Source: Methanolobus bombayensis
Lineage (GTDB): Archaea; Halobacteriota; Methanosarcinia; Methanosarcinales; Methanosarcinaceae
Direction of reading: 5' to 3'
DNA length: 64,000 nt
Assembly (NCBI RefSeq): GCF_017873415.1
Contig: NZ_JAGGKD010000002.1
Coordinates: 62,001 to 126,000, forward strand
In this document: positions 8,675 to 24,055 of the stretch, piece after piece
How positions within the stretch are numbered: position 1 is the first letter of the stretch
How the letters are laid out: each line of letters opens with the position of its first letter
Position numbers and translations under genes: made by a program
Notes under the pieces: generated by a model
Databases searched by the model: none
What the model was told of the DNA's origin: nothing
What the model saw: only the letters and a program-made list of their open reading frames with translations

Positions 8675-10279
8675 TCAGTCTCTGCCCTTCTGTTCATACT
8701 TTTCTTTTATTTCCTTAATAGTTGCCCTTAATTTAGCTCTTTCAAGAGGTAACGACTCTTCCTGTAATTCCATGAAAAGTGCTTTTATCAGGCAGTATAA
8801 CATCAAAAGCATGACAAGCATGAACGGGAAACCACCGATTATAGAAGCTGTTTGAAGAGCCCCCAGACCGCCTGCAAGTAGAAGAACTGCTGCAACGGCT
8901 CCTTCCAGACTACCCCAGATGATCCTGAGTGGAAGTGGTGGATTCGGATTACCTTTTGATGTAAGCATTCCGATAACATAAGTGCCTGAGTCAGAAGAGG
9001 TTATAAAGAATATAGCTACAGAGAACATTGCGACTCCGATAAGTATATCAGAATACGGGAAGAAGCTGAGCATACTGAAAAAGCCCAGTGCGGAATCAAC
9101 TTCCACAGCTTTGGCGATTCCGCCTGCTCCGAAATGTTCAATAAAAAGGGCAGACCCGCCAAAAATGCTGAACCATACCATACTTACAACGGTAGGTGCA
9201 AGCATAACTCCTATTATAAAACTTCTGATAGTTCGTCCTCTTGACACACGGGCGATGAAAGAGCCGACAAAAGGTGCCCATGCAATCCACCATGCCCAGT
9301 AGAAGATCGTCCATGAGTCTCCCCATCCTTCGACACCTACTCCCGCAGGATCAGTTCCGAATGACATCTGCAGCAGGTTCTGCAAATAACCCCCAACAGA
9401 ATGCGTAAAAAGCTCAAGTGTAAATAATGTAGGTCCGAGTACAAATATGAGTATCATTAAAATCAATGCAACTGCAAGATTTATTTGACTCAACCATTTT
9501 ATTCCTCTGTCAATACCTGAACTGGTTGACATCACTGCCAGTATTGTAACTACGGTTATGATTAAAACCCATAATGTAGGTCCGCTCACATATCCGAACA
9601 GTTCTTCAAGTCCTGCTCCAATTTGCATGACACCAAGACCAAGGGTTGTGGCTATACCGAAAAGGGTTGCTAGAACACCGATAGTATTTACTGCAACTCC
9701 CCACTTACCATCGATTCCTTCTCTTCCGAGAATGGGTTCCAGAGTAGAACTCAATAACATAGGTAATCCTTTTCTGTAAGAAAAGTATGCTAGTGATCCG
9801 GCAACAACAGAATATATTGCCCATGGATGGAATCCCCAGTGGAAGAATGAATATCTCATGGCTGCATGCAGGGATTCAGCTGTATTTGGTTGTTCGTAAA
9901 GAGGCCACATATAGTGCCAGATAGGTTCTGAAACACCCCAGAAAAGCAAACCTATCCCCATTCCGCAACTAAAAAGCATGGCAAACCATGAGAGGTCGGA
10001 ATATGCAGGTTTTTCGTAGTCTCCGCCTAATTTGATATCACCAAGCGGACTTAACATCAGGTATATAATCAGTAACAGGAAAATACTTCCACCAAGTAAA
10101 AATGACCATCCGAGATTTCCTACCATCCAGTTAAAAGTATTATCCATATATTGACCAAAACTCTCTGCGTAAAACGTACCTGCAAAAACAAACGCTAAAG
10201 TCAGAAATAACGATACCAATAATGTAGGTGTTTTTAACGTTTCAGAAAATTCAGTAAGTCCTTTTTGCATTTCTCTCAT
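8675..10279 (-). CDS. BCCT-family (betaine/choline/carnitine) transporter
   Basis: A 534-residue secondary transporter with twelve predicted helices. Family signatures include FWGVSEPIWHYMWP, HWGFHPWAIYSVV, and the tryptophan-rich WAWWIAWAPFVGSFIARVSR block that forms the trimethylammonium box and neighbouring helix in glycine-betaine carriers. The C-terminus is short and charged. The substrate is probably a quaternary ammonium compound such as glycine betaine or choline; the exact one is not fixed by sequence. A strong GGAGGT site is six bases upstream of the ATG at 10279. The gene diverges from the MtmB-like methyltransferase gene, suggesting either osmolyte uptake or supply of a methylated amine as methanogenic substrate. 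Confidence 0.92.
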   Translation of the reverse strand: MREMQKGLTEFSETLKTPTLLVSLFLTLAFVFAGTFYAESFGQYMDNTFNWMVGNLGWSFLLGGSIFLLLIIYLMLSPLGDIKLGGDYEKPAYSDLSWFAMLFSCGMGIGLLFWGVSEPIWHYMWPLYEQPNTAESLHAAMRYSFFHWGFHPWAIYSVVAGSLAYFSYRKGLPMLLSSTLEPILGREGIDGKWGVAVNTIGVLATLFGIATTLGLGVMQIGAGLEELFGYVSGPTLWVLIITVVTILAVMSTSSGIDRGIKWLSQINLAVALILMILIFVLGPTLFTLELFTHSVGGYLQNLLQMSFGTDPAGVGVEGWGDSWTIFYWAWWIAWAPFVGSFIARVSRGRTIRSFIIGVMLAPTVVSMVWFSIFGGSALFIEHFGAGGIAKAVEVDSALGFFSMLSFFPYSDILIGVAMFSVAIFFITSSDSGTYVIGMLTSKGNPNPPLPLRIIWGSLEGAVAAVLLLAGGLGALQTASIIGGFPFMLVMLLMLYCLIKALFMELQEESLPLERAKLRATIKEIKEKYEQKGRD

Positions 10280-10756
10280 TCATTTACCTCCAGTTTATAC
10301 TTTGAAAAAAAGTGAGTTTACAATTAAGCAAAAATGCTGCAGGTGAACTACCCTTACCTTTCGTTCTGATCACATGAAAGGGGCTTCCTGTCTTAGAAGT
10401 TAATATAAAGATTTTCATCATTTTAAGAAGATCAAGAAACGATACCCTTGTAAATAACTTCATATCATATCTAATAATAAAAACTCCACTTCAAGTAGCA
10501 TTAATAGAACACGATTGAGATTTATACAATCATTATTCAATTGTTAATCATCAAGCATCTTATTTATTGTCCTATAAATTAAAAACTCTTCTGTTAACAT
10601 CTGTATTTTATTTGTGGTTATATATTATAATGACAGTATATTGTAACTTAGTAATAATATTTGGTTTTTATTACAAATCATATTAACTTATGTATTTTAT
10701 GTTATCAGTTATTGCTATAAGTTAAAAGCTACTAGGAAATATAAGAGGTATCATGT
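10280..10756. promoter_or_regulatory. Long AT-rich divergent control region between the BCCT and MtmB-like genes
   Basis: This 477-bp non-coding stretch has no open frame and is strongly AT-rich. On the plus strand a TATATATTA element (about 10618-10628) is a reasonable TATA box, implying a leader of about 100 bases before the MtmB-like gene; long leaders are known for methylamine methyltransferase mRNAs. A GAGGT ribosome site (10745-10749) sits seven bases before the ATG. The minus-strand side carries the GGAGGT site of the BCCT gene (10286-10291). No clear operator palindrome was identified. The promoter positions are inferred. Confidence 0.45.
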
Positions 10757-12127
10757 ATGTCAGATATATATAAATATTTAAGAAGTTCTTTTTCGGGTGA
10801 AGAGAAAAAAGAAAATGAACACGACATGGATGTTTTCAAAATATCCCGGGAACTTGCTGAGGATTATAACATAATAAACGAAGGGGATTTTGTACCATAT
10901 GATATGGATATGGCAGATGCTGTTTTTTCAGCAGCTATCGAACTTCTGACCACCACCGGGGTTTATTGTACGGATACAGGAAGATCGATACAGGTAAATA
11001 ATGAAGAAGTATTACAGGCTCTCGGAACTCCCAATGCCCTTGAGATTGGAAGGTTTAAAGAAAGAATTGAAGTTGTAAGAAGGTGTGTAATGGATTCTCA
11101 GGCACCTGTAATAATTGGTGGACCAATGGGTGGCAAGATTTCTGAAAAGGATTATCTGAACATACACATAAGTTCTGCAAGTGAACCTATTGTTCAGGGA
11201 ATCTATGGCGGCTCACTTCAAACTTTTAATGAGGATCCCATAAAATTTGACAGCCCTGAGGAAATGTTTGTGTCTTTTGAGGAAGCACGGCTTGAAAGAC
11301 TTGCAACAAAAGTTGCCGGAAGGGAAGGACTTACTCTTATAGGCCCCTCAACTCCGACAGTGTCGCAGGCCTATATGCTAGTATCTTCAAATGAATTATA
11401 CACAAAGAATGATGTTCATAAAACCCATCAACTTGAGAATTTGAAAACAAATTTCGAGACATTCTATAGGGCTATATTCCATCAAGGTAACGGAAATAAT
11501 TATTTTAGTGATCAATGTCCGGTTTTAGGTGAAAAGCACATTGAATCTCCTGAAGCTCTGGCTATTATCGATGTTGCAGAGACCATACAATCCCGCCTGG
11601 TAACAGGTGCGAATCTGCATGCTTCTGGAGCCGTTGATTCAGATACTAAATCGTCATCTTCTAAAGAAATAATATGGTCATCCAATATGGCGTCTCTTGC
11701 CATCTCCCGCAATATGAACCATTGTACTGGAAGATATTACAGGAATCTTGCAGGTTGTTGTACCGACATGATGTTTTATGAAACTGCAGCCCAGGCAATA
11801 GGAGATACGGTTTGTGGAAGAGAAATGTTAATAGGTCCTCTGGGAGGAGGCAGTAAGGGAACTGATATGTCCACTGGTCTTGAGTCAAGATTCATGGGAG
11901 AGGTGAGCAGAATGGCTCTTAATTTAGATCTGGCAGAAGCAAATGAGGTCATTGAAATGCTTTATTCCAAGTACGAGGACAGGCTTTCCGACGCTCCTCA
12001 TGGAAAGGATTTTGAATCATGTTACACTGTCAATTCCAAATATGAAATGAAACCGGATCAACAATATATGGAGCTTTACTCTAAGATTATCGGCGAAATA
12101 GATGAGTACTATAGAAATATGTTCTAA
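10757..12127 (+). CDS. Pyrrolysine-free homologue of monomethylamine methyltransferase MtmB
   Basis: At 456 residues it is almost the length of Methanosarcina MtmB (458). Shared blocks include FVPYDMDM (46-53), GVYCTDTGR (68-76), IIGGPMGGKIS (119-129), SDQCP (251-255), CCTDM (334-338), GREML (354-358) and APHGKDFESCY (413-423), aligned from memory of the M. barkeri protein. MtmB methylates its cognate corrinoid protein with the methyl of monomethylamine, using pyrrolysine 202 encoded by in-frame UAG. Here that position is Ile195 (ATA, 11339-11341). MtmB Glu259, Gln333 and Glu229 correspond to Asp252, Arg326 and Lys222, while Tyr335 is kept as Tyr328. A different substrate or mechanism is likely. 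No corrinoid protein or MtbA gene lies nearby, so these would act in trans. A GAGGT site sets the start. Confidence 0.85.
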   Translation: MSDIYKYLRSSFSGEEKKENEHDMDVFKISRELAEDYNIINEGDFVPYDMDMADAVFSAAIELLTTTGVYCTDTGRSIQVNNEEVLQALGTPNALEIGRFKERIEVVRRCVMDSQAPVIIGGPMGGKISEKDYLNIHISSASEPIVQGIYGGSLQTFNEDPIKFDSPEEMFVSFEEARLERLATKVAGREGLTLIGPSTPTVSQAYMLVSSNELYTKNDVHKTHQLENLKTNFETFYRAIFHQGNGNNYFSDQCPVLGEKHIESPEALAIIDVAETIQSRLVTGANLHASGAVDSDTKSSSSKEIIWSSNMASLAISRNMNHCTGRYYRNLAGCCTDMMFYETAAQAIGDTVCGREMLIGPLGGGSKGTDMSTGLESRFMGEVSRMALNLDLAEANEVIEMLYSKYEDRLSDAPHGKDFESCYTVNSKYEMKPDQQYMELYSKIIGEIDEYYRNMF

Positions 12128-12302: not shown

Positions 12303-12390
12303 ATGTTCGGTTTAAGCTTGTGGACAGACCTTTCACTCGAGAAAGCTGGATGAAGCAGGAAGCCACCCAATTTATTGGCTGGTAGTTCAC
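12303..12390 (+). ncRNA. Solo IS200/IS605-type right end resembling a TnpB omega-RNA
   Basis: The sequence contains the conserved order of an IS605-family right end: a CTTTC-ACTC-GAGAAAG hairpin region, GGATGAAGCAGGAAGCC, an imperfect hairpin (CCACCCAA / TTGGCTGG, 12363-12382) and the terminal TAGTTCAC (12383-12390). In complete elements this stretch is the 3' end of tnpB and becomes the guide-RNA scaffold. No tnpB or tnpA is present, so this is a relic or a solitary element. Its final bases overlap the stop codon of the convergent histidine kinase gene. Identification rests on recalled family features, not on a search. Confidence 0.55.
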
Positions 12391-15300
12391 TTGGTGGTAT
12401 CAACTGGTATTGCAAATGTGAATGTACTTCCCTTACCTACTTCACTTTCCACTTCTATGTCTCCGGAATGCATTTCCACGTAATATTTTACAATAGCAAG
12501 TCCCAGTCCGGTTCCTCCGTGAGTTCGGCTTATCGATGAGCTGATCTGTTTAAAAGGGTCAAAAATAGCTTTATTTTGTTCAGAGGGAATACCGATGCCA
12601 TTATCAGATACAGAAATGTGTACTTTCCCGTTTGCTACTTTAGAATCAACTCTTACTTTACCATGGTCAGGTGTGAACTTGATTGCATTACTTAAGAGAT
12701 TGTATAATATCTGTTTGATTTTTATCCTGTCAGCATTTATTTCAAGACCCTTTAATTCAATATTGGTTTTAAAATCGATATGTTTCTCTTTTATAAGAGG
12801 TTCCATTAGCATTATGCTTTCTTCCAAAACCTCTGACATATTTATTGGTTCAGGGTCGAATACCATGTTGCCTGATTCAATTTTTGAAACATCGAGTATA
12901 TCATTGATAAGGTTCAGCAAATGATTACCACTTTTCAGTATGTTTGAAACATAATGAAGTTGTTTTTCATTAAGTTCTCCAAAAATTTTATCATTTAATA
13001 TCTGGGAAAAACCGATAACTGAATTAAGTGGTGTTCGAAGCTCATGACTCATATTGGCAATGAACTCCGATTTTATCTGGTTTGATTCTTCAGCAAGGGC
13101 TTTAGCTCTTAGAAGGGCCATTTCTGTATTTTTTCGTTCAGTAATGTCTGTTAAAAATAGAGTAAGACCGATGACATTCCCATTCTCATCTTCAAGAGGA
13201 CTATACACGTTCTCGTACCATCGTCTTTCAAGTAATGAATCGCCGTATTCTTCAATAGTGGTAAAAGCTTCGCCTGCCAGTACTCTGTCAAAATTCATTT
13301 TTGATTTTTTTCTGTCTGAAGAATCTGTGATGTAATCAAGCATACAGGTGCCAATATCAATGTCCGCGTTCCATATGTTTTTCATAGTGTTCCGGTGATT
13401 TTCATTAAAAGCAATATACATGTAATTTCTATCAAGGGCGAAAATGATCACATCTTCAGGGCTTTCAATAACTTCATGAAGTAGTTGGTATGCCTGTCTG
13501 TATTTCTGCTCGGCTTGTTTCAATATTTCCGCAGCTCTATTTCTTTCAGTAATGTCTCTGCATATGCAATATGCCAGATTCTGTTCATTTATTATTGCAT
13601 TGTTAGTAGTGACTTCCACATCAAATGAGCTCCCATCTTTACGGAAGTGCTTTGTTTCAAAATGGGTAAATGATTTATCATTAGTTCTAATTACTTCAAT
13701 TAGCTTCTCTTTATTGAATGATCTATCCCAATCCCAAACGTGTAACTGGAGCAATTCATCCATTGGATAGCCAAGCATATCCGCATATTTCTGATTAGCT
13801 TCCACTATTTTTCCATTTTGATCAATGGCAACAATTCCATCGTTTGCCTGCTCGAAGAAAATACGTGTTCTTATGTTCTCTTCTGCAAACCTGGCCTCAG
13901 CTCTTTTTTTCTCAGTTATATCGGCATGAGTTCCATACATAAGAAGTGGTTTTCCCTCTTCGTCCCATTCGATCACTTTTCCACGATCAAGTACCCATAC
14001 CCACTCTCCATTCTTGTGTTGTAAGCGTGCTTCATATTCATAATAATCAAGCTCGCCTTCAAAGTGTTTCCTAAGAAGCATTTCAGCTTCTTTTAAGTCG
14101 TCCGGGTGGGATAATTCTGCCCATGTCTGTATATTGGTTGGAGCTAATTCATCAAGCGTATAACCTACTATCTCTGCCCAGCGTTCATTGAATGAAGTTT
14201 CACCAGTCTGGATATTCCATTTCCATGTCCCGATATTTGTACCTTCAATGATGTTCGCAAGACGTTTGCGCTCTTCTAACAGCTCTTTCTCTGCCTGCTT
14301 CCTTTCGGAAATATTCCTGCCAATTCCCAATACTCCAATGAGTTTTCCACTGGAATCATACATAGGACTTTTAATAGTTTCCAGATATTCTTTGTGTCCG
14401 TCGTCGGCATAAGTGATTAATTCCTCATTCATTGAAGGTTTACCGGCTTCTAATGCCTCCATATCCTTTTGTCTGAAAAAGTCTGCAAGTTCCTTGTCAA
14501 CAAAATTATGATCCGTCTTTCCAATGATTTCTGCTTCTTTTGCACCGAAAAAACGCTCAAATTTACTATTGCATTTAAGGTACATTCCTTCGGGATTCTT
14601 CAGCCATATTAGATCAGGAATAGTATCTACCAGTGTACGTAGTTGTCCCTCACTATTCATTAGTGCTATTTCTGCATTTTTGTGATCAGTTATATTGATG
14701 GATGCTGACATGACCCTCTGAATGCCATTGATCATAACAGGACTCAATCGGACATAAAGCCAAAGATCTTCGCCGTTCTTCTTTTTGTGAAGCCATTCAA
14801 ACTCCTGCGCCCCTCCTGAAACAGTTTTATGTATCAATTCTTGAGCTTCTGCTAGTGAGTATGGATGCTCATACCAGATATCATTCTCCTGTAATTCTTT
14901 GAGTGAAGAAAAGCCAAAAGAAGTATAAGCTGCAGGATTAGCGTCAATTATATCCCCACTGTCCTTATCGTGTATTATTGTGGAAATGGGTATTTCTGTG
15001 AAAAGACTTCTGTACTGCTCTTCACTGTTCTGGAGTTTCTCTTCATATATCTCTTCAGAGTTTTTTGTCCCTGTAAGGTCACGAATAATAGAACAAAGAA
15101 GGGTTTTTTCTCCGATGCTGGTAGGAAAGGTATTTACTTCGACATCTCGTATTTCACCACTAGCAATTTGATGTTTGAAGAAAAAGTGATTTTTTATCTC
15201 ATTCATTGCCTTTTGGACCGCTGCTGAGACTTCCTCTTCAGGCATTGAATTTATGTGAAAGATCTTCTTACCTATAAACTCCTCTAACTTCCAGCCATAA

Positions 15301-15416
15301 AATTCACATGCAGCATGGTTTGCATCAACGATATCAAGGGTATCAGGATCTATAAGTAACATAATGACATGTGCGTTGTCAAATAATGTCCTGTACCCGG
15401 TTTCCTTAATTCCCAC
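12387..15416 (-). CDS. Soluble multi-PAS sensor histidine kinase (six PAS domains)
   Basis: A 1009-residue kinase without membrane segments. Six PAS domains follow one another (about 1-120, 132-250, 256-380, 384-508, 511-635, 640-765); several end in the usual DITE(R/K) PAC motif. The dimerisation/phosphoacceptor domain has the H-box [16 protein letters not shown] (about 780-795) and the ATPase domain has [16 protein letters not shown] and [11 protein letters not shown]. It should autophosphorylate in response to cytosolic redox, light or ligand signals; no ligand can be assigned. There is no receiver domain and no adjacent response regulator. A GTG start is supported by GAGGA six bases upstream. 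It shares its upstream region with the divergent APC permease genes. Confidence 0.93.
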
Positions 15417-15626
15417 AATTATTCCTCGTTATTCTTTATGAATTAGATTTAACAAAGAGGAAATCTATCATCTTATTTGAATAGAGAGATTTTTAATTTT
15501 TACTACTCAATTACATGCAGTTATTATTATATAAATCACTGCTTGTTTTTTAATGTTATTAATTTCATGCTCTTGCTCCAACAATAATCAAGGGACTAAT
15601 TTTTATAACAAGTCATCAAGAAAACA

Positions 15627-16946
15627 ATGGGATTCTTGATGGCCGAAAGCAAATCAATGGGACTTTGGTCAGCCACATCAATTGGTGTCGGTGCCATGGT
15701 GGGTGCAGGGATATTCTCAATATTTGGAACGGCAACCCAGATATCCGGTAATGCAGTCTATATGTCTTTCATAATTGCCGGGGCAATAGCTCTGCTGAGT
15801 ACTTATTCCTATGCAAAATTAGGAGTAAGATATCCTTCCGCAGGTGGTCCCGTTGAATTTCTGATCCATGGGTTTGGTGATAGAATACTCACCGGTGCTC
15901 TGAATCTGTTGTTATGGACAGGCTACATTTTTGGACTGGCATTATATGCAAAAGGATTTTCTCTCTATGCACTGGCATTAGTGCCACTTGATTCTACAGG
16001 TATCTGGACAAATGTTTTTGCCACAGCAATAATAGTAGTTTTTACAGCCGTCAATTTTATCGGTGCAAAGGCTGTAGGAAAATCAGAACTTATTATAGTA
16101 TCAATTAAAGTGGGTATCCTTCTGCTTTTTGCAGTTTCCGGTCTCTTCTTCATAGAACCATCAAATCTTTCAATCACAGGATTTCCATCAACCTCAAATA
16201 TCCTCTTTGGAGCTGGCATAGTATTTCTTGCATATCAGGGTTTCGGGCTCATTACCAATGCAGCAGAAGACATGATTGATCCCCAAAAAACACTCCCTCG
16301 GGCATTGTATCTGAGTGTGATAATTGTAATTTTTCTCTATGTTCTTGTAAGTATCACAGTTATTGGAAACCTGTCCATTTCCACAATATCAACAGCCAAA
16401 GACTATGCTCTGGCTGCCGCTGCACAACCTTTTCTGGGAAATTCAGGATTTACAATCATGGCAGTTGCAGCTCTTTTTTCAACATCTTCCGCCATTAATG
16501 CATCTCTGTATGGGGGTGCAAACGTAAGTTATCTTATTGCAAAAGAAGGTGAATTACCTGCTTTTTTTGAAAGGAAAGTATGGAACAGAAGTACAGAAGG
16601 ACTTTTCATTACATCAGGTCTTGTGATTCTATGCATTAATCTTCTAAATCTGGAAGGGATAAGTATGATCGCAAGTGCATCTCTGTTGGTGATCTATGTT
16701 GCAGTTAATGTCTCTCATATGAGGTTGGTAGCTGAAACAGGTGCGAAACGCTATCTTATATGGTCATCTCTTCTCAGTAGTATAGTGTTTTTTGGGATAC
16801 TGGTTTATTATGAAATATTGAATTCAATACCAACACTGGTGGTTTTTGCTTTTATCATTGCATTATGTTTTATAGTTGAATGGGTTTACAGAAAATGTTC
16901 GAACAGAATACTAAAAACAAGAAGCAATGGTGGTAATCAATTATGA
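15627..16946 (+). CDS. APC-superfamily amino acid/polyamine permease (first of a tandem pair)
   Basis: A 439-residue permease with about twelve membrane helices. The first helix carries the unwound substrate-site motif GVGAMVGAGIFSIFG, followed by the SYSYAKL and RYPSAGGPVEF signature of amino acid transporters. The substrate is unknown. The frame opens at 15627, but the ATG at 15639 (MAESKSM) follows a GGGAT-like site and may be the true start. A TATA-like TTATATAAAT lies near 15527. Its stop overlaps the start of the next permease gene by four bases (ATGA). Confidence 0.9.
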   Translation: MGFLMAESKSMGLWSATSIGVGAMVGAGIFSIFGTATQISGNAVYMSFIIAGAIALLSTYSYAKLGVRYPSAGGPVEFLIHGFGDRILTGALNLLLWTGYIFGLALYAKGFSLYALALVPLDSTGIWTNVFATAIIVVFTAVNFIGAKAVGKSELIIVSIKVGILLLFAVSGLFFIEPSNLSITGFPSTSNILFGAGIVFLAYQGFGLITNAAEDMIDPQKTLPRALYLSVIIVIFLYVLVSITVIGNLSISTISTAKDYALAAAAQPFLGNSGFTIMAVAALFSTSSAINASLYGGANVSYLIAKEGELPAFFERKVWNRSTEGLFITSGLVILCINLLNLEGISMIASASLLVIYVAVNVSHMRLVAETGAKRYLIWSSLLSSIVFFGILVYYEILNSIPTLVVFAFIIALCFIVEWVYRKCSNRILKTRSNGGNQL

Positions 16947-18244
16947 GTGAAGGTTCTTCAGCAAAAAATATAGGCTACCTTTCCGCAGTTTCAATAGGAG
17001 TTGGTGGAATGGTCGGCGGAGGAATCTTCGCCGTTCTCGGACTTGCTGTTAAACTCGGAGAAGGTGGGACACCTATTGCCTTTGCACTTGCAGGTCTGGT
17101 GGCATTAATAACATCTTATTCTTATGCAAAACTCTCTGTTCGTTATCCATCAGAAGGTGGAACTGTGGAGTTTCTTAATCAGGCATTTGGTTCTGGTATG
17201 ATAACCGGAGGACTGAATGTATTACTCTGGTTGAGCTATGTTGTCATGCTTTCACTCTATGCTTATGCGTTTGGTAGCTACGGTTCAACATTTTTCCCTG
17301 ATTCCATGCAGTTTGTCTCTAGACATATTCTCATTAGTGCGATTGTGGTATTGATGACTGCGATCAATGTTATTGGCTCCAAAGTTGTAGGCAAATCTGA
17401 AGAATGGATTGTAGCATTTAAAGTTGCAATTCTCACCATTTTCATAGGAGGTGGGCTGTGGAGTATAAGATCACAAACTGCCCAGGTAACTTTAGGTTCA
17501 GATCCACTCCAACTTGTTGCCGGTGGAATGATAATTTTCCTGGCATATGAAGGATTTGAACTCATAGCCAATACTGCAAATGATATCAAGAACCCTGAAA
17601 AGACCCTTCCACGTGCCTATTATTCTGCAGTTCTTTTTGTTATCCTGCTCTATGTGTTGATAGCATACGTAACCGTTGCAAGTGTTTCAACCGACACCAT
17701 TGTTCAGGCACAGGATTATGCCCTTGCAGTTGCTGCTGAACCGTTCCTCGGAAGTTTAGGTTTCAATCTTATTGCTGTTGCAGCTCTTTTATCCACAACA
17801 TCTGCGATCAATGCAACATTATATGGAGCTTCACGTGTGAGCTATATTATCGCAAAAGATGGTGAACTGCCGGAATTATTAGAGAAGAAGATATGGAACA
17901 AACCTGTTGAAGGGTTGCTATTGACTTCAATTATGACACTGTTTGTGGCAAATCTTTTTGACCTGTCCAGCATTTCAATCATGGGTAGTGCGGGTTTTCT
18001 TCTGATATTCGGAGCAGTAAATGCTGCAAATGTTCGTGTCTATAAGAGAACCAAAAGTAAAAAATGGATATCAATAACTGGCATTGTTGCATGCATCGTA
18101 GCTTTTCTGGCACTTATCTGGTATGTACTGACCAACTCTCCTGCAGATATCTATGTATTAATAATAATGGTGTTCCTTGCTTTTGCAGTTGAGTTTATCT
18201 ATAGAAAATATACTGGCAGGCAAATAAAGAAAATTCATTTTTAA
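16943..18244 (+). CDS. APC-superfamily amino acid/polyamine permease (second of a tandem pair)
   Basis: A 433-residue paralogue of the preceding permease. It has the matching GVGGMVGGGIFAVLG first-helix motif, the RYPSEGGTVEFLNQAFG signature and the conserved AVAALLSTTSAINATLYG helix. The ATGA overlap with the upstream gene indicates translational coupling, and the similarity points to local duplication. The two could be functionally distinct uniporters or a heteromeric pair; APC carriers usually act alone, so separate substrates are more likely. A kinase remnant follows on the opposite strand. Confidence 0.9.
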   Translation: MSEGSSAKNIGYLSAVSIGVGGMVGGGIFAVLGLAVKLGEGGTPIAFALAGLVALITSYSYAKLSVRYPSEGGTVEFLNQAFGSGMITGGLNVLLWLSYVVMLSLYAYAFGSYGSTFFPDSMQFVSRHILISAIVVLMTAINVIGSKVVGKSEEWIVAFKVAILTIFIGGGLWSIRSQTAQVTLGSDPLQLVAGGMIIFLAYEGFELIANTANDIKNPEKTLPRAYYSAVLFVILLYVLIAYVTVASVSTDTIVQAQDYALAVAAEPFLGSLGFNLIAVAALLSTTSAINATLYGASRVSYIIAKDGELPELLEKKIWNKPVEGLLLTSIMTLFVANLFDLSSISIMGSAGFLLIFGAVNAANVRVYKRTKSKKWISITGIVACIVAFLALIWYVLTNSPADIYVLIIMVFLAFAVEFIYRKYTGRQIKKIHF

Positions 18245-18279
18245 CGATTAGATTATTCCAGATTCAAACCTTCTATTTG

Positions 18280-18531
18280 TTATTCAACAGGGATCACAAA
18301 TGCAAAAGTGTTCCCTTTTGCGGGTTTGCTCTGACCCAGATATTGCCTTTGTGCATTTCAACATATTTTTTGACAATTGCAAGACCAAGCCCGATTCCAC
18401 CCTGCTCTCTGATACTGTACTTACTTATTTGTTAAAAAGGTTCAAAAAGACAGGCTTTGTTCTCACTGGAGATTCCAATTCCGTTGTCCTTGACACTTGT
18501 GTGGATTATATCAAATTTAATCCGTTTGTTC
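18280..18531 (-). pseudogene. Remnant of a histidine kinase ATPase domain (C-terminal end only)
   Basis: Read on the minus strand, the sequence encodes the last 80 or so residues of a kinase: KDNGIGISSENKACLFEPF, then a TAA at 18434-18432 where other kinases have Lys, then QISKYSIREQGGIGLGLAIV and KKYVEMHKGNIWV. A one-base frameshift near the end separates this from the proper terminus GNTFAFVIPVE and its stop (18282-18280). It starts in a frame overlapping the tail of the intact kinase gene upstream. It is best explained as the leftover of a deleted tandem kinase copy. Confidence 0.88.
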
Positions 18532-21171
18532 AATATTTATATTATCATATTCAGGTTCTTTCGGAATCCTAAAAACAAAACTACTTCCTTCTCCGGGATT
18601 ACTCTGAACACTGATACTGCCTCCATGCATTTCAATGAATTTTTTAGCAATAGCCAGTCCCAGTCCGCTTCCTTTAAAATCATGATTTAAACATGGTTTG
18701 ATCTGCCTGAAAGGCTGGAAAAGTTTATCCATATCATTCAGTGAAATCCCTATACCTGTGTCCTGTATATTAAGATATACTGAACTGTCCACTGTACCTG
18801 CTTCAATTGTAACTTTTCCATTCTCCGGAGTAAACTTAATGGCATTACTTGCAAGATTGTAGATAATTTCCTTGAATTTAGTCCTGTCAGCAAATATCAT
18901 CTCTGGCAGAGAATTATATTTAAGTTCAAGGTCTACTCCTTTTTTCATGGCCATTGGCGTCACTGACATTTTTATTTCGTTGATGCTATCTGAAAGGTTG
19001 AATTTTTCATAGTTGAGTTCCACTCTTCCGGCTTCTATCTTTGAAAGGTCCAGAATATCATTGATTACATTCAGGAGGTGTTTTCCACTTTTTGAAATAT
19101 AATCTATATATTCAGTCTGTGCTTCATTTATTTCTCCGAAATCCCCTCCCTTTATAATTTCTGAAAATCCGATGATGGAATTAAGGGGAGTCCTTAGTTC
19201 ATGACTCATGGTTGCGAGGAATTCATTTTTGGCTAAGCTTGCCTCTTCTGCAGTGATCTTAGCTTTCAGCAGTTCATCCGAATATTTTTTCCTTTCAGTA
19301 ATATCTCTGCAGACACAAAACACGAGTTTTTTGCCACTATATGCCATAAGATTTGAGTTGATTTCAACATTAAGGATAGTTCCATCTTTACATTTCTGTT
19401 TTGTCTCAAACAATATACCCTGGAAATCTGAAGATTGGATCATATTGAGAAGATGGTCGCGGTCAAAATTAGCATCCCAATCCCACACATACATATTTTG
19501 AATTTCGCTGACAGTATATCCAAGCATTTCAGCAAAAGCCGGATTTGTCTCAAAGACACTTCCATCCATTTCCAGTATGACCATTCCATCCCTTGACTGT
19601 TCCATTAGAAGACGGCGCCAGTGAACTTCTTCAGAAAGTGCATTCTCCGATTTCAGGCGTTCAGAAATATCTTTAATGATGGCACAGTTATATTCTTCCT
19701 CTCCATAGATCATGTGATTGACAGAAATTTCGACAGGTAGCAATCTTTTTTCTTTTGTCAGATGCATGGAATGGAAAGTAAAACTCTTTTTTTCTGTGAC
19801 TAGTTTCCAGTGTTCATTCCACATATCTTCTGTGAAAACCGGATCAATATCCGGTACTGACATGGTCAAAAGTTCTTCTTTTGAATAGCCCAGCAAATCA
19901 CAGGCCGATTTGTTGGCAAAAAAGAATTCTCCGGTTTTCCTTGTCCAGAATACGGCATCGCTGAAATTCTCCAGTGAAAAACAAGCAAGATTCAATCCTT
20001 TTTCAGTCTTTTTACGTTCGGTTAGATCCCTTATGAAAGTACAGTCGTACTCTTTACCTTCATAATTCATGTAGTTGGAAATTATTTCAACAGGGCACAT
20101 TTCACCTGAATTAGTGCGAACATCAACTTCTGCAAGTGATGTCTTTTCATTACATAGTTTTTCCCAGTGTTCTTTCCATGATTCCTGTGTAAGTTCAGGA
20201 TCAAAGCTGAATACTGACATCGACAGCATTTCATCTTTAGAATAACCTGTTAGATCACACGCAGCTTTGTTAACATAAAATACATTTCCATTTTTCTCTA
20301 ACCATGCGACAGCATCCTTAGAATTTTCAAGTGAGTGACTTGCTTTTTTTAATTCTTCTTCTGCATTCTTCCTTTTCGTTATATTCCTGAAAAAAGTGCA
20401 GTGATATTCTTCTCCTTTGTAGTTCAGATAATTGACCGTTATTTCTACAGGCAGGATATTTCCAGATTTGGTGCGGACACTGGACTCATTAAAATATGTT
20501 TTGTTTGATCTCACATTTATCCAGTGTTCATCCCACATGGATGAAGTAAAATTTGGATTCACATCTGATACAGACATTGATAGTAGTTCTTCTTCAGTAT
20601 AACCAAGAAGGTTGCATGCGGCTTTGTTGACATAAAACATTTGTCCGTTTGATTTAACCCAGACTACCGGATCAAAAGCATTCTCAAGTGCAAAAAATGC
20701 CAGATGCAGATCTTTTTCAGTTCTTTTCTGTTCAGTTACATCACGAACCACGACATAATTCACATCTTTTTCTTTTTTAAGTGGGTCACTCCTGTAAATC
20801 TTTACATCGCGAACTTCACCACTTGAAAGCATGTGTTTTGAAAAAAAGTAATTTTTATCACCTGCATTCTTGCATTCAATGGAACTATTTTCCTTTCCTT
20901 TCCTTGATTCCATAATTACGGCATCTATATCACTGATATCCATTTTCTTCAGTTCTTCCAGTGACCATCCATAAAATTCAGAAGCAGTATGATTTGCATC
21001 AATGATCTTGCAAGTACTCTGGTCAATTAACAGTACCACTGTTCTGTCATTCTGAAAAAGGTCCCTGTAGGTTTCTTCATTTTTGAGAAAATAGTCTATC
21101 AAAGTTTCTTCATAGCAAAAGAGAGATGAATTATCTCCGGTCTGCTCCCAATGATACCTTTTTTTTCCCAT
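18517..21171 (-). CDS. Soluble multi-PAS sensor histidine kinase with a triplicated PAS unit
   Basis: An 884-residue cytosolic kinase: five PAS domains (about 25-150, 156-275, 276-395, 396-515, 520-640), H-box [16 protein letters not shown] (about 657-672), then an ATPase domain with NLASNAIKF, DTGIGIS and GSGLGLAIAKK. The second to fourth PAS domains are clear repeats of one another, each with the pattern SLEN-DAV-W, NK(A/S)ACDL-GY and PVEI--N---Y-GEEY. The final dozen residues (EYDNINIEQTD) are atypical and overlap the neighbouring kinase remnant in another frame, suggesting that the end was formed by recombination. No receiver domain or partner is present. Confidence 0.92.
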   Translation of the reverse strand: MGKKRYHWEQTGDNSSLFCYEETLIDYFLKNEETYRDLFQNDRTVVLLIDQSTCKIIDANHTASEFYGWSLEELKKMDISDIDAVIMESRKGKENSSIECKNAGDKNYFFSKHMLSSGEVRDVKIYRSDPLKKEKDVNYVVVRDVTEQKRTEKDLHLAFFALENAFDPVVWVKSNGQMFYVNKAACNLLGYTEEELLSMSVSDVNPNFTSSMWDEHWINVRSNKTYFNESSVRTKSGNILPVEITVNYLNYKGEEYHCTFFRNITKRKNAEEELKKASHSLENSKDAVAWLEKNGNVFYVNKAACDLTGYSKDEMLSMSVFSFDPELTQESWKEHWEKLCNEKTSLAEVDVRTNSGEMCPVEIISNYMNYEGKEYDCTFIRDLTERKKTEKGLNLACFSLENFSDAVFWTRKTGEFFFANKSACDLLGYSKEELLTMSVPDIDPVFTEDMWNEHWKLVTEKKSFTFHSMHLTKEKRLLPVEISVNHMIYGEEEYNCAIIKDISERLKSENALSEEVHWRRLLMEQSRDGMVILEMDGSVFETNPAFAEMLGYTVSEIQNMYVWDWDANFDRDHLLNMIQSSDFQGILFETKQKCKDGTILNVEINSNLMAYSGKKLVFCVCRDITERKKYSDELLKAKITAEEASLAKNEFLATMSHELRTPLNSIIGFSEIIKGGDFGEINEAQTEYIDYISKSGKHLLNVINDILDLSKIEAGRVELNYEKFNLSDSINEIKMSVTPMAMKKGVDLELKYNSLPEMIFADRTKFKEIIYNLASNAIKFTPENGKVTIEAGTVDSSVYLNIQDTGIGISLNDMDKLFQPFRQIKPCLNHDFKGSGLGLAIAKKFIEMHGGSISVQSNPGEGSSFVFRIPKEPEYDNINIEQTD

Positions 21172-21427
21172 AGGATCATCTAGCCTGTCTTAAAGTCAGA
21201 TCCGTCAACAGCAAAGACATCCGGAATATTGTATCAGACAACATACCAGAAGACAAAATCATTTGAAAATCTCTATCTTTTCAAAAGCATTTCCTGCCTT
21301 TAATTGACAGCAACCAACCCTGCGAATATTACTATTGAACCACTGTTATTTAAAGATGAATGATTTGATTTTTTAAGATTACAGTTGCATATGGGAAAGA
21401 TTCAGGAAAAAATGCTGAGTTAAAAAG

Positions 21428-24055
21428 TCAAAGAGCTTTTTTCAGTGTGATCCAGAACACACTTCCCTTTCCTTCAGGATTGTCCTCAACACCATATTCT
21501 CCATCATGCAGTTCGATTATACGTTTTACAATAGCAAGGCCTAATCCAGTTCCCTTTATTCCTTTTTTATCTGCACGCTGGAAACGGTTAAAGAGCAGGA
21601 CTTTATCGGAATCAGAGATTCCTGCTCCCCGGTCTGTAACAGTGACTTTCCACATCCTGTCAAGCTCTTTGAAAGTTATATCAATGGCACTTCTTAAAGG
21701 GCTGTATTTGATAGCATTTGACAATAGATTTGCAAAAACCTCTTCTATGATCGGATTAGCTACAGCAGGACAGGCACTAATTCCATATATATTCACTGTC
21801 TGATCATTTGTTTCTATTGTTTCCCTGAAACTATCAATGACCATTTTAAACACAGGTACCACGTCTATCTTTTCAAAACCAATGTCCTCTTCTTTCTGGA
21901 GTTTTGCAAGCTTGGTGGCAGTTTCAAGCATCTCTATCAATCTGTCATTGTTTTCCTTGACTTTCTGTGCCAGCATCCTTGATTGTTCATCGCTTGTTGT
22001 GTCAAGAAGTTCTTCTGTGTAACCTTTGACAACACTGGCCGGAGTGAGCAGATCGTGACGTATGATATCGGTGAACAGGTCTTTAAGTTCGTTTGATTTT
22101 TTGAGTTCAGATGCATATCTTTTTAGTCTTTCTTCAGCTTTCTTTCTCTCAGTGATGTTCCTGGCTACAGAAAGAATGGCCTTTTCGCCTTTGTATTCTA
22201 TAAGTCTGGAATTGAGTTCAAGCGGAAGCACGGATCCGTCTCTAAGCACAAAACTGATCTCAAAAATAACGCCTTTTTCCTTCATTATGCGTTCTGTGTA
22301 ACTATCCATCAGTAGTTTCATTTCAGGTTTTACAATATCATCAGGAGACATTTCAAGCATTTCTTCCCTTGTGTAACCAGTTGAAGAGACCATAGCTCTG
22401 TTCGCATCTATAAAATTACCATAAGGACTGCAGATATATATGAGGTCGTCAACGTTATTGAATACTGTTTTAAGGTTGTTCTCGGACTCGATCAGCATTG
22501 ATTCCATTCTTCTGTTTTCGGTTATGTCCTCACCTGAGCTGATAACTCCAATACGTTTACCGTTCTCATCTTCAACAGGAACATCATGCCAGAATATCAG
22601 TCTTTCTTCTCCATCTTTTGTAAGTATAAAGTTCTCAAAATATTGTGGGGGATCTAATTCGTGGTTAATAACCTTAACAAAATTACTTTTTGTTAGATCT
22701 CGGACACTTTCAGGAAGGAAATTATCAAACCATTTCTTTCCTATTATTTCGTCTTTATCATATCCGAGGACTTCAGCTCCTTTATTGTTAACGAAGATTA
22801 CTTCCTGATCGGGATTTACAATACCTATTATAGAACCTGCCACATCAAGATAATTGTAGAGTTTATCCCTTTCTATTTTAAGAAGCTCTTCAGTACGTTT
22901 TCTTTGGCTTATATCCCTTATTATGAGAAGTTCTGCCTTCTTTCCTTCATAATCGATAAGCGAGCCATTGATCTCAACAGAAATATTTTCATTTTCCCGG
23001 GTTGTTATATTCATGTCAAAGATTTTTTTGTCAGCTACTTTTAAGCTGCATAGTTTCATCCATTCTGAAGCTTTTTGTTCATCATTTGAAGGGCTGAATT
23101 TCATATAATTCTGGTTGACAATCTCTTCAAGGGTGTAACCTGTGAGTTCGGACATCTTTGAATTTGCAAATTTTATTATCCCGTCCTGAATTATCAGAAC
23201 TCCGTCATTTCCTTTTTCCACAATTGTTGAGTATTTCTTTTCGGATTCCAGAAGTTCCTGTTCGACAATTTTTGTTTCAGATATGTCTTTTCCCACGCAG
23301 ATAAACATGTCATTGTTGTCATCATCCAGAGGCTTGCATGTTATATTCATAGGAACTTTTTCCCCGTTCCTGCACAAATGCTCTAACTCACATTCAGAAC
23401 GTCCTTTTTTAGCTGCTTCTTCTATTATAGAAGGGATTTCATTATTGGTGACACACTGGTTAATGAGTTCTGATATGTTCATTTTGTGAAGCTCGTCAGA
23501 TGAGTGTCCTGTACAGGTTTCAAAATTAACATTAAAATCAACTATGTTTCCTTTATTGTCAACCATGAAAATGTAATCTTCAAGTTTATTGTAACAATCC
23601 CTCAGTTTTCTTTCAAAGGTTTTAAGTTCTACTATTTCTTCCCTTTTTTCAAAAGCAAGCGTTACAAGCTTTGTTATCATTCCAAGTATTTTTTCGTATT
23701 CTTCAATTCTGGTCCTGTTATCATGAACATCAGGTTGCAGTCCTTTGAGGCTAAGCTCTATAAACCCATTATTTTTTCCATTAATAACAATATCATTAAC
23801 AAGTACCATATCATGGTTAGCACAAGCCGAATATTTGCATTCTTTTCCAAGTAATCCGATCTTGATCGATACAAATTCCGGTCCATTAAAAAGATATTTG
23901 ACCCTGTCTGTAAGCAACTTCAGGGATTTTTCTAAAGTTGGTTCATTTAATAAAACTTCAAAGACATTCGTAACGTTGGTAATTACGCTTTCGTTATTTT
24001 TTGTATATCCATTCATCTCCCATTTTCCCCATGAGCGAACAAATGGCAGGTGCAT
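21428..24055 (-). CDS. Soluble sensor histidine kinase with N-terminal GAF-like and four PAS domains
   Basis: An 875-residue kinase. The first 140 residues look like a degenerate GAF-type domain. Four PAS domains follow (about 150-265, 270-390, 395-520, 525-645) with PAC endings such as DISQRKR and NITERKKAEE. The phosphoacceptor helix is RHDLLTPASVVKGY, the less common HDLLTP form, and the ATPase domain has [18 protein letters not shown] and [12 protein letters not shown]. This catalytic core belongs to a different subgroup from the SHELRTP kinases around it. The start is uncertain: the frame opens at 24055, but the ATG at 24016 (MNGYTKN) is a plausible alternative. Confidence 0.9.
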   Translation of the reverse strand: MHLPFVRSWGKWEMNGYTKNNESVITNVTNVFEVLLNEPTLEKSLKLLTDRVKYLFNGPEFVSIKIGLLGKECKYSACANHDMVLVNDIVINGKNNGFIELSLKGLQPDVHDNRTRIEEYEKILGMITKLVTLAFEKREEIVELKTFERKLRDCYNKLEDYIFMVDNKGNIVDFNVNFETCTGHSSDELHKMNISELINQCVTNNEIPSIIEEAAKKGRSECELEHLCRNGEKVPMNITCKPLDDDNNDMFICVGKDISETKIVEQELLESEKKYSTIVEKGNDGVLIIQDGIIKFANSKMSELTGYTLEEIVNQNYMKFSPSNDEQKASEWMKLCSLKVADKKIFDMNITTRENENISVEINGSLIDYEGKKAELLIIRDISQRKRTEELLKIERDKLYNYLDVAGSIIGIVNPDQEVIFVNNKGAEVLGYDKDEIIGKKWFDNFLPESVRDLTKSNFVKVINHELDPPQYFENFILTKDGEERLIFWHDVPVEDENGKRIGVISSGEDITENRRMESMLIESENNLKTVFNNVDDLIYICSPYGNFIDANRAMVSSTGYTREEMLEMSPDDIVKPEMKLLMDSYTERIMKEKGVIFEISFVLRDGSVLPLELNSRLIEYKGEKAILSVARNITERKKAEERLKRYASELKKSNELKDLFTDIIRHDLLTPASVVKGYTEELLDTTSDEQSRMLAQKVKENNDRLIEMLETATKLAKLQKEEDIGFEKIDVVPVFKMVIDSFRETIETNDQTVNIYGISACPAVANPIIEEVFANLLSNAIKYSPLRSAIDITFKELDRMWKVTVTDRGAGISDSDKVLLFNRFQRADKKGIKGTGLGLAIVKRIIELHDGEYGVEDNPEGKGSVFWITLKKAL

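Follow-up and report, generated by a model that had tools for sequence, protein, structure and literature searches.

A BCCT-family carrier gene divergent from a pyrrolysine-free MtmB homologue: a rare gene pair of salt-associated methanogens

Background

The first methyltransferases of methanogens have been described as encoded adjacent to their own corrinoid genes (PMC6855144), and two described systems come closest to the locus studied here. In Methanolobus vulcani B1d, the opuD-mtgB-mtgC genes place a BCCT carrier beside a methyltransferase without pyrrolysine (non-Pyl) that acts on glycine betaine (PMC6855144), and MttB-type clusters with BCCT genes are dealt with in PMC9768040. MtqB of Methanococcoides methylutens Q3c, whose function was assigned in 2026, is a non-Pyl MtmB that demethylates tetramethylammonium and choline (PMC13044021). 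We analysed a stretch of 64,000 nucleotides from Methanolobus bombayensis (contig NZ_JAGGKD010000002.1, positions 62,001 to 126,000; hereafter the window), in which a BCCT transporter gene lies back to back with the gene of a non-Pyl MtmB homologue. To our knowledge, most such homologues are without known function. A transporter that travels with one MtmB clade is a direct handle on the substrate of that clade, and a substrate assignment would widen what salt-loving methanogens convert to methane in habitats rich in betaine osmolytes.

Our analyses suggest tentatively, and with somewhat less than even confidence, that the pair encodes an importer and a methyltransferase for a betaine-like compound. 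The locus resembles the B1d arrangement, recovered here at locus L122, in that a BCCT carrier adjoins a non-Pyl methyltransferase gene in the same genus; in B1d, however, MtgB is a member of the MttB superfamily, encoded in line with its carrier and with a corrinoid gene next door, and the carrier is 44% identical to that of the window and lacks its C-terminal tail. With MtqB the window enzyme shares membership of the MtmB family, absence of pyrrolysine and occurrence in a methylotrophic methanogen, but its upstream neighbour is a divergent BCCT gene instead of a corrinoid gene (mtqC), and the main text of PMC13044021 mentions no transporter for the MtqB system.

The two genes at the locus

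The divergent arrangement of the original prediction, with 477 bp between the genes, was confirmed, both open reading frames being intact at the coordinates first given:

8675..10279, minus strand: BCCT-family transporter of the "BCCT-A" clade, 534 amino acids, with complete aromatic box, GMGIG motif and charged C-terminal tail
10757..12127, plus strand: pyrrolysine-free MtmB-family methyltransferase of "clade I", 456 amino acids, with Pyl202 changed to I195, E229 to K222, E259 to D252 and Y335 to R329 (first numbers as in M. barkeri)

The transporter matched Pfam family BCCT (PF02028) over its whole length (E = 2.4e-183; 610 bits, cut-off 27). The sole Pfam match of the methyltransferase homologue was MtmB (PF05369; E = 9.6e-138; 460 bits, cut-off 25; residues 3-451); an NCBIfam search gave no name for it, and PF06253 (MTTB/MtgB, MttB superfamily) matched nothing at this locus. 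Its gene lacks an in-frame TAG, and the position of pyrrolysine, residue 202 of M. barkeri MtmB, is occupied by Ile195.

The genome (3.12 Mb, 35 contigs) contains five genes of the MtmB family, of which two have an in-frame TAG and three lack it. The two other TAG-free paralogues share 54-55% identity with the window protein; one, at L037, directly follows a corrinoid-protein gene, while the other, at L039, stands tail to tail with a pyrrolysine mtmB near an mtbA-like gene. The second of the genome's two BCCT genes belongs to clade B; it follows a DUF1638 gene on contig C17, and its product is 44% identical to BCCT-A.

Occurrence of the pair among genomes

The survey comprised 111 Methanosarcinaceae genomes, in which MtmB clade I was delimited by at least 67% identity to the window protein and the BCCT-A clade by at least about 72%. 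Clade I was found in eight genomes, BCCT-A in ten and both in seven: the window genome (G000), Methanolobus sp. M17C-73-03 (G011), the metagenome-assembled genome T3Sed10_220R1 (G020), Methanohalophilus mahii SLP (G033), two further Methanohalophilus genomes (G085 and G087) and a Methanosalsum genome (G031). Except in G031, the two genes lie side by side and diverge, separated by about 380-480 bp, and this linkage exceeds chance. The pair is thus not peculiar to the window genome, since six genomes carry it, and its conservation beyond that genome is established; at 6 of 111 genomes it is also rare, which does not agree with the general statement of the original prediction that transporters are commonly next to the methyltransferases they feed. 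The presence of BCCT-A in seven of the eight clade I genomes gives a Fisher p of 2.8e-8, uncorrected for relatedness; the eighth, G098 (72% complete), has clade I MtmB only. BCCT-A without clade I MtmB occurs in G097, G030 and G083, the last two holding an MtmB homologue of 55-56% identity.

Among the Methanohalophilus members that appeared in the MtmB and BCCT match lists, the pair is found in three genomes (G033, G085 and G087), neither gene in another three (G084, G088 and G089), and G086 holds a 58% MtmB of another type and no BCCT-A. Within this genus the two genes of the pair thus occur together or not at all. In a phylum-wide sample, 8 of 392 genomes carried BCCT-A, and all genomes searched that carry it belong to salt-associated genera, the salt association being assigned by genus. 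Across the genomes searched, the pair is rare and occurs in salt-associated methanogens alone; no description of it was noticed in the literature searched.

This distribution bears on the main rival explanation, namely that the carrier is an ordinary importer of glycine betaine for osmoprotection, that its linkage is incidental or reflects joint transfer of salt-niche genes, and that the MtmB homologue has an unrelated function. The restriction of BCCT-A to salt-associated genera (8/392 in the phylum sample, 10/111 in the family) is as this explanation would have it, as is its occurrence away from an MtmB neighbour in 4 of 10 genomes (G030, G031, G083 and G097). Against it speak the all-or-none presence in Methanohalophilus and the clade B BCCT, which is already encoded in all seven genomes with both genes. 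We consider osmoprotection with incidental linkage rather unlikely, though to be taken seriously.

Genomic sites, gene trees and selection

The pair occupies three different chromosomal sites, in the window, in Methanohalophilus and in G011/G020. Its flanks in the window are EamA-type and PAS-kinase genes; in Methanohalophilus the flanking genes are different, though PAS kinases are encoded within a few kb, so that nearby PAS kinases are what the two sites share and the flanks differ otherwise. The ribosomal-protein superoperon harbours the pair in G011 and G020 (L052:7976-11362 and L053:7995-11362); this insertion site is near the chromosomal position at which Methanococcoides has a non-Pyl MtmB of its own.

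In the BCCT tree the window gene joins Methanohalophilus (support 98/99) and not G011/G020 of its own genus, and the MtmB trees give the same grouping (98/95 and 92/92); the MtmBs of the six divergent pairs form one clade (100/99). Ratios of non-synonymous to synonymous change were 0.06-0.09 for pairs of clade I MtmBs and 0.03-0.10 for pairs of BCCT-A (Nei-Gojobori, many synonymous distances being near saturation); both genes are under purifying selection. Because adjacency at three sites is accompanied by agreeing gene trees, the two genes appear to form one inherited or transferred functional unit, the simplest account being that the unit was inherited and moved together. The same divergent layout at three sites and the congruent trees argue further against incidental linkage to an osmoprotectant importer.

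Relatives and pocket of the methyltransferase homologue

The closest structure to the window protein is M. barkeri MtmB (PDB 1l2q/1nth), of which it shares family and fold (template modelling score 0.88 to 1l2q, about 30% identity). It differs in the absence of TAG, in altered residues at the positions of Pyl202, Glu259, Gln333 and Tyr335, and, for the pairs as a group, in the absence of an mtmC-like corrinoid gene beside any of the six. A normal pyrrolysine MtmB was therefore rejected, since TAG is lacking and the pocket is changed.

The MtmB-family tree comprised 57 rows, nine duplicate or partial rows having been dropped from the 66 found. The neighbours of the window clade are a Methanococcoides clade, the L037 protein and a clade of Methanolobus and Methanomethylovorans genes located near mtbA; two uncultured archaea contribute deeper rows. 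Sister non-Pyl MtmB genes (48-49% identical) are present in the uncultured archaea B74_G9 and JdFR-19 (L072:5751-7109 and L076:9992-11350). In Methanococcoides the non-Pyl MtmB gene has an unusual partnership: it is followed by a gene for an Orc1/Cdc6-type ATPase and usually by a hydantoinase-A/oxoprolinase gene (L045:6186-10784, L054-L058), and several of these clusters lie beside the ribosomal-protein operon. In G027 (L080:907-4054) the genes of a divergent BCCT (28% identical) and of a further non-Pyl MtmB (32% identical) converge tail to tail, next to genes like those of the dimethylamine system; the aromatic box of that BCCT is degenerate.

Positions 202, 229, 259, 333 and 335 of MtmB, taken here as the active-site positions of 1l2q/1nth (literature searches for these residue numbers found none), are Pyl, Glu, Glu, Gln and Tyr. 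In our alignment (phmmer, MAFFT), Gln333 falls against Tyr327 and Tyr335 against Arg329 of the window protein. Unpaired proteins of the non-Pyl clades I-III have a hydrophobic residue, Glu, Gly or Ser, mostly Tyr, and Trp (Phe in L037) at the five positions. The residues at 229/335 are Lys/Arg in the window protein, Glu/Arg in G033, Glu/His in G085 and G087, and Lys/Trp in G011 and G020. A basic residue (K, R or H) at 229 and/or 335 is thus found in all six paired MtmBs and in none of 32 unpaired relatives (31 alignment rows plus L162). The Methanosalsum proteins keep Glu/Trp; in G031 the BCCT gene is unlinked, and in G098 it was not seen on a short contig. Besides pyrrolysine, the window protein has lost Glu259 of MtmB, with D252 at that position. 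As the six paired proteins form one clade, the gain of basic residues represents at least two changes and not six. The active site of MtmB has been called an anionic cleft (PMC2933860), and the positive charge gained here might suit a carboxylate-bearing, betaine-like substrate.

An MtqB identity of the homologue, which would then demethylate tetramethylammonium and/or choline imported by the BCCT carrier, was also considered. MtqB of Q3c, itself a non-Pyl MtmB, acts on both compounds (PMC13044021), and choline transport is known for BCCT carriers. The proteins of L078, L117 and L118, whose pocket has Cys-Met and whose genes directly follow a corrinoid gene, are by gene order and signature the likely MtqB group; they are about 29% identical to the window protein and distant from it in the tree. 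Membership of the window protein in that group is unlikely on both counts, as judged from these likely relatives. A conserved Met and Cys mark the pocket of MtqB. The candidate MtqB relatives have Cys259/Met260, presumably pocket positions 4 and 5 of PMC13044021, where the window protein has D252/Q253. The carrier has Tyr instead of the choline-marker Phe, and M. mahii is reported without growth on choline (PMC3017947). An MtqB function thus appears improbable.

The carrier

The aromatic box of BCCT-A is complete (W148, W153, Y156, W330, W331 and W334) and its GMGIG motif is intact. The aromatic-box markers in TmaT numbering are Trp146, Trp151, Tyr154, Trp326 and Trp329, choline carriers having Phe at 154 and carriers of dimethylsulfoniopropionate having Phe at 329 (PMC11708041). 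All quaternary-ammonium markers are conserved in BCCT-A; the choline marker is absent (Tyr156 at TmaT 154), as is the dimethylsulfoniopropionate marker (Trp334 at TmaT 329). Its best NCBIfam match, the glycine betaine equivalog NF047988, reached 603.5 bits, below the cut-off of 650. Likeness to BetP and TmaT extends to the aromatic box and the GxGxG motif, while the position of BetP T250, a residue of the Na1 site (PMC13270143), reads in the alignment as Ile in BCCT-A and Leu in TmaT.

The nearest solved structure is TmaT (408 bits). Since this relative is a trimethylamine carrier, the assertion that BCCT carriers bring in quaternary compounds was too strict, and a further explanation had to be weighed: the carrier might be a TmaT-type importer that feeds the normal trimethylamine pathway, with the MtmB homologue handling a side product. 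The same aromatic residues and the Met in the GxGxG motif agree with this. However, the genome's own second BCCT is nearer to TmaT (497 bits), so that closeness to TmaT does not distinguish the pair. Each of the three methanogen BCCTs compared (BCCT-A, clade B and the B1d carrier) has TmaT as its best structural hit, which makes it uninformative as a mark of a trimethylamine carrier. The box residues are common to betaine carriers, so that sequence cannot decide trimethylamine specificity. Methanogens are thought to use another trimethylamine permease, MttP (PMC11708041). We regard this explanation as highly improbable.

BCCT-A is the most BetP-like of the carriers compared (364 bits for BetP against 343 for the choline carrier), whereas the clade B and B1d carriers score choline above BetP. 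It also bears a charged C-terminal tail, of which the catabolic B1d carrier has almost none. Such a tail is typical of osmoregulated carriers, and both features favour the osmoprotectant importer. Elsewhere in the family, which decodes TAG as pyrrolysine, the second replicon of G030 carries a BCCT gene interrupted by an in-frame TAG (L086:9415-11004), which may be either broken or read through.

The corrinoid partner

A corrinoid gene adjoins none of the six pairs. Relatives of the corrinoid protein beside L037 were found in 14 of 111 genomes; two of the 16 matching genomes (G027 and G120) were dropped, with matches of 37-41% identity beside their own MtmB-like genes, as were second matches (44-45%) beside MtqB-like genes in G028, G062 and G068. 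This corrinoid occurs in 11 of 22 genomes with a clade I/II-type MtmB versus 3 of 89 others (p = 4e-7, uncorrected). Its counterpart in G033, G085 and G087 shares 58% identity with that of L037 and is encoded on its own beside a DUF1638 gene, and the detached protein is a candidate partner in four of the six pair genomes. At the threshold used it is absent from G011, G020 and G031. In G072, the MtmB gene is adjoined by a different corrinoid gene. The standalone corrinoid and DUF1638 module of Methanohalophilus (L168:7202-8698, L181, L182, L183) matches genes near the L037 MtmB. A conserved cluster of corrinoid-like, URO-D/MtbA-like and PAS sensor kinase genes was also seen (L166:4488-7594, L170:7650-10973, L171-L173), possibly a corrinoid-based sensor of methylated compounds.

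The orphan position in 6/6 pairs, together with Methanococcoides relatives whose operon partners are an Orc1/Cdc6-type ATPase and a hydantoinase-like protein instead of a corrinoid, would fit a non-catabolic role. The MtmB homologue would then be regulatory or linked to corrinoids, serving in sensing, scavenging or repair, with a ligand that the BCCT provides or modulates. Purifying selection, the paralogue directly after a corrinoid gene in the same genome and the closeness of the structure to MtmB all speak against such a role, to which we assign little probability.

Proposed function

In the importer-methyltransferase reading, the two genes would be a unit found in methylotrophic methanogens that are halophilic or haloalkaliphilic. 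A methylated zwitterionic or quaternary compound would enter through the BCCT carrier, presumably Na+-coupled; the non-Pyl MtmB homologue would pass a methyl group from it to the cobalt of a corrinoid protein whose gene lies elsewhere, and an MtbA-type coenzyme M methyltransferase would then form methyl-coenzyme M. Catalysis, the betaine-like carboxylated substrate class, the corrinoid partner and co-regulation are what we infer here. Betaine demethylation by an MtgB encoded elsewhere was considered; the seven genomes with both genes have no non-Pyl MttB/MtgB, all eight of their PF06253 matches carrying TAG.

A quaternary or zwitterionic substrate had been proposed for the pair from the outset. 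The proposal gains from the precedents of MtqB, a non-Pyl MtmB, and opuD-mtgB, and loses from the growth reports and the missing adjacent corrinoid. M. mahii SLP carries the pair and is reported without growth on choline or betaine (PMC3017947). That study names both BCCTs as candidates for betaine import, and the methylamine systems as listed there do not include this MtmB homologue (PMC3017947). A Red Sea Methanohalophilus strain is likewise reported negative on glycine betaine (PMC6491703). These reports argue against growth on choline or betaine and leave other betaines, osmolyte turnover or osmoprotection alone. In view of the M. mahii report, demethylation of glycine betaine, should that be the substrate, would probably be for turnover or a supplementary methyl supply and not for growth on it as sole substrate.

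Beside the M. mahii report, several points weigh against an importer-methyltransferase pair: the BCCT-A genes away from MtmB, the charged tail, the lack of an adjoining corrinoid gene and the absence of the L037-type corrinoid from three of the genomes with both genes. The AlphaFold model of the homologue (mean predicted local distance difference test, pLDDT, 75; predicted template modelling score 0.84) has pLDDT below 50 at residues 193-225, so that the pocket is not judgeable from it and the pocket claim rests on the alignment and the active-site positions taken from 1l2q/1nth.

A bolder version, which we regard as unlikely and offer as speculation, is that the clade represents a third specificity in the MtmB family: a carboxylated quaternary compound, either glycine betaine or a different betaine, would be imported by its own divergent BCCT and demethylated via a corrinoid protein with its gene at another site, giving an MtgB-independent betaine-type route in a two-gene cassette that moves between genera of halophilic methanogens.

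The intergenic region

The region between the divergent starts contains the following features:

10280..10756, unstranded: AT-rich intergenic region, 477 bp, between divergent starts; ends kept in the six pairs, AT-rich middle not
10286..10291, minus strand: Shine-Dalgarno-like GGAGGT of the BCCT gene, its CCTCC invariant across the six pairs
10704..10721, plus strand: conserved element ATCAGTTATTGCTATAAG, which precedes the MtmB start by about 35 bp, putative TATA box/B recognition element or operator
10745..10748, plus strand: Shine-Dalgarno-like GAGG of the MtmB gene, kept in the six pairs

Element ATCAGTTATTGCTATAAG is possibly a TATA box with B recognition element, or an operator. A simple promoter scan, which models sigma-70 and not archaeal promoters, gave fewer sites than shuffled sequences did. 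Of the "shared control region" first proposed, the divergent geometry and the 477 bp stand; the support is one of geometry, and the AT-rich middle diverges across the six pairs.

Neighbouring genes in the window

Adjoining the pair, positions 12387-24055 encode three large PAS-type proteins, two of which are sensor histidine kinases by Pfam. Two tandem amino-acid permeases are encoded nearby, at 15627-18244.

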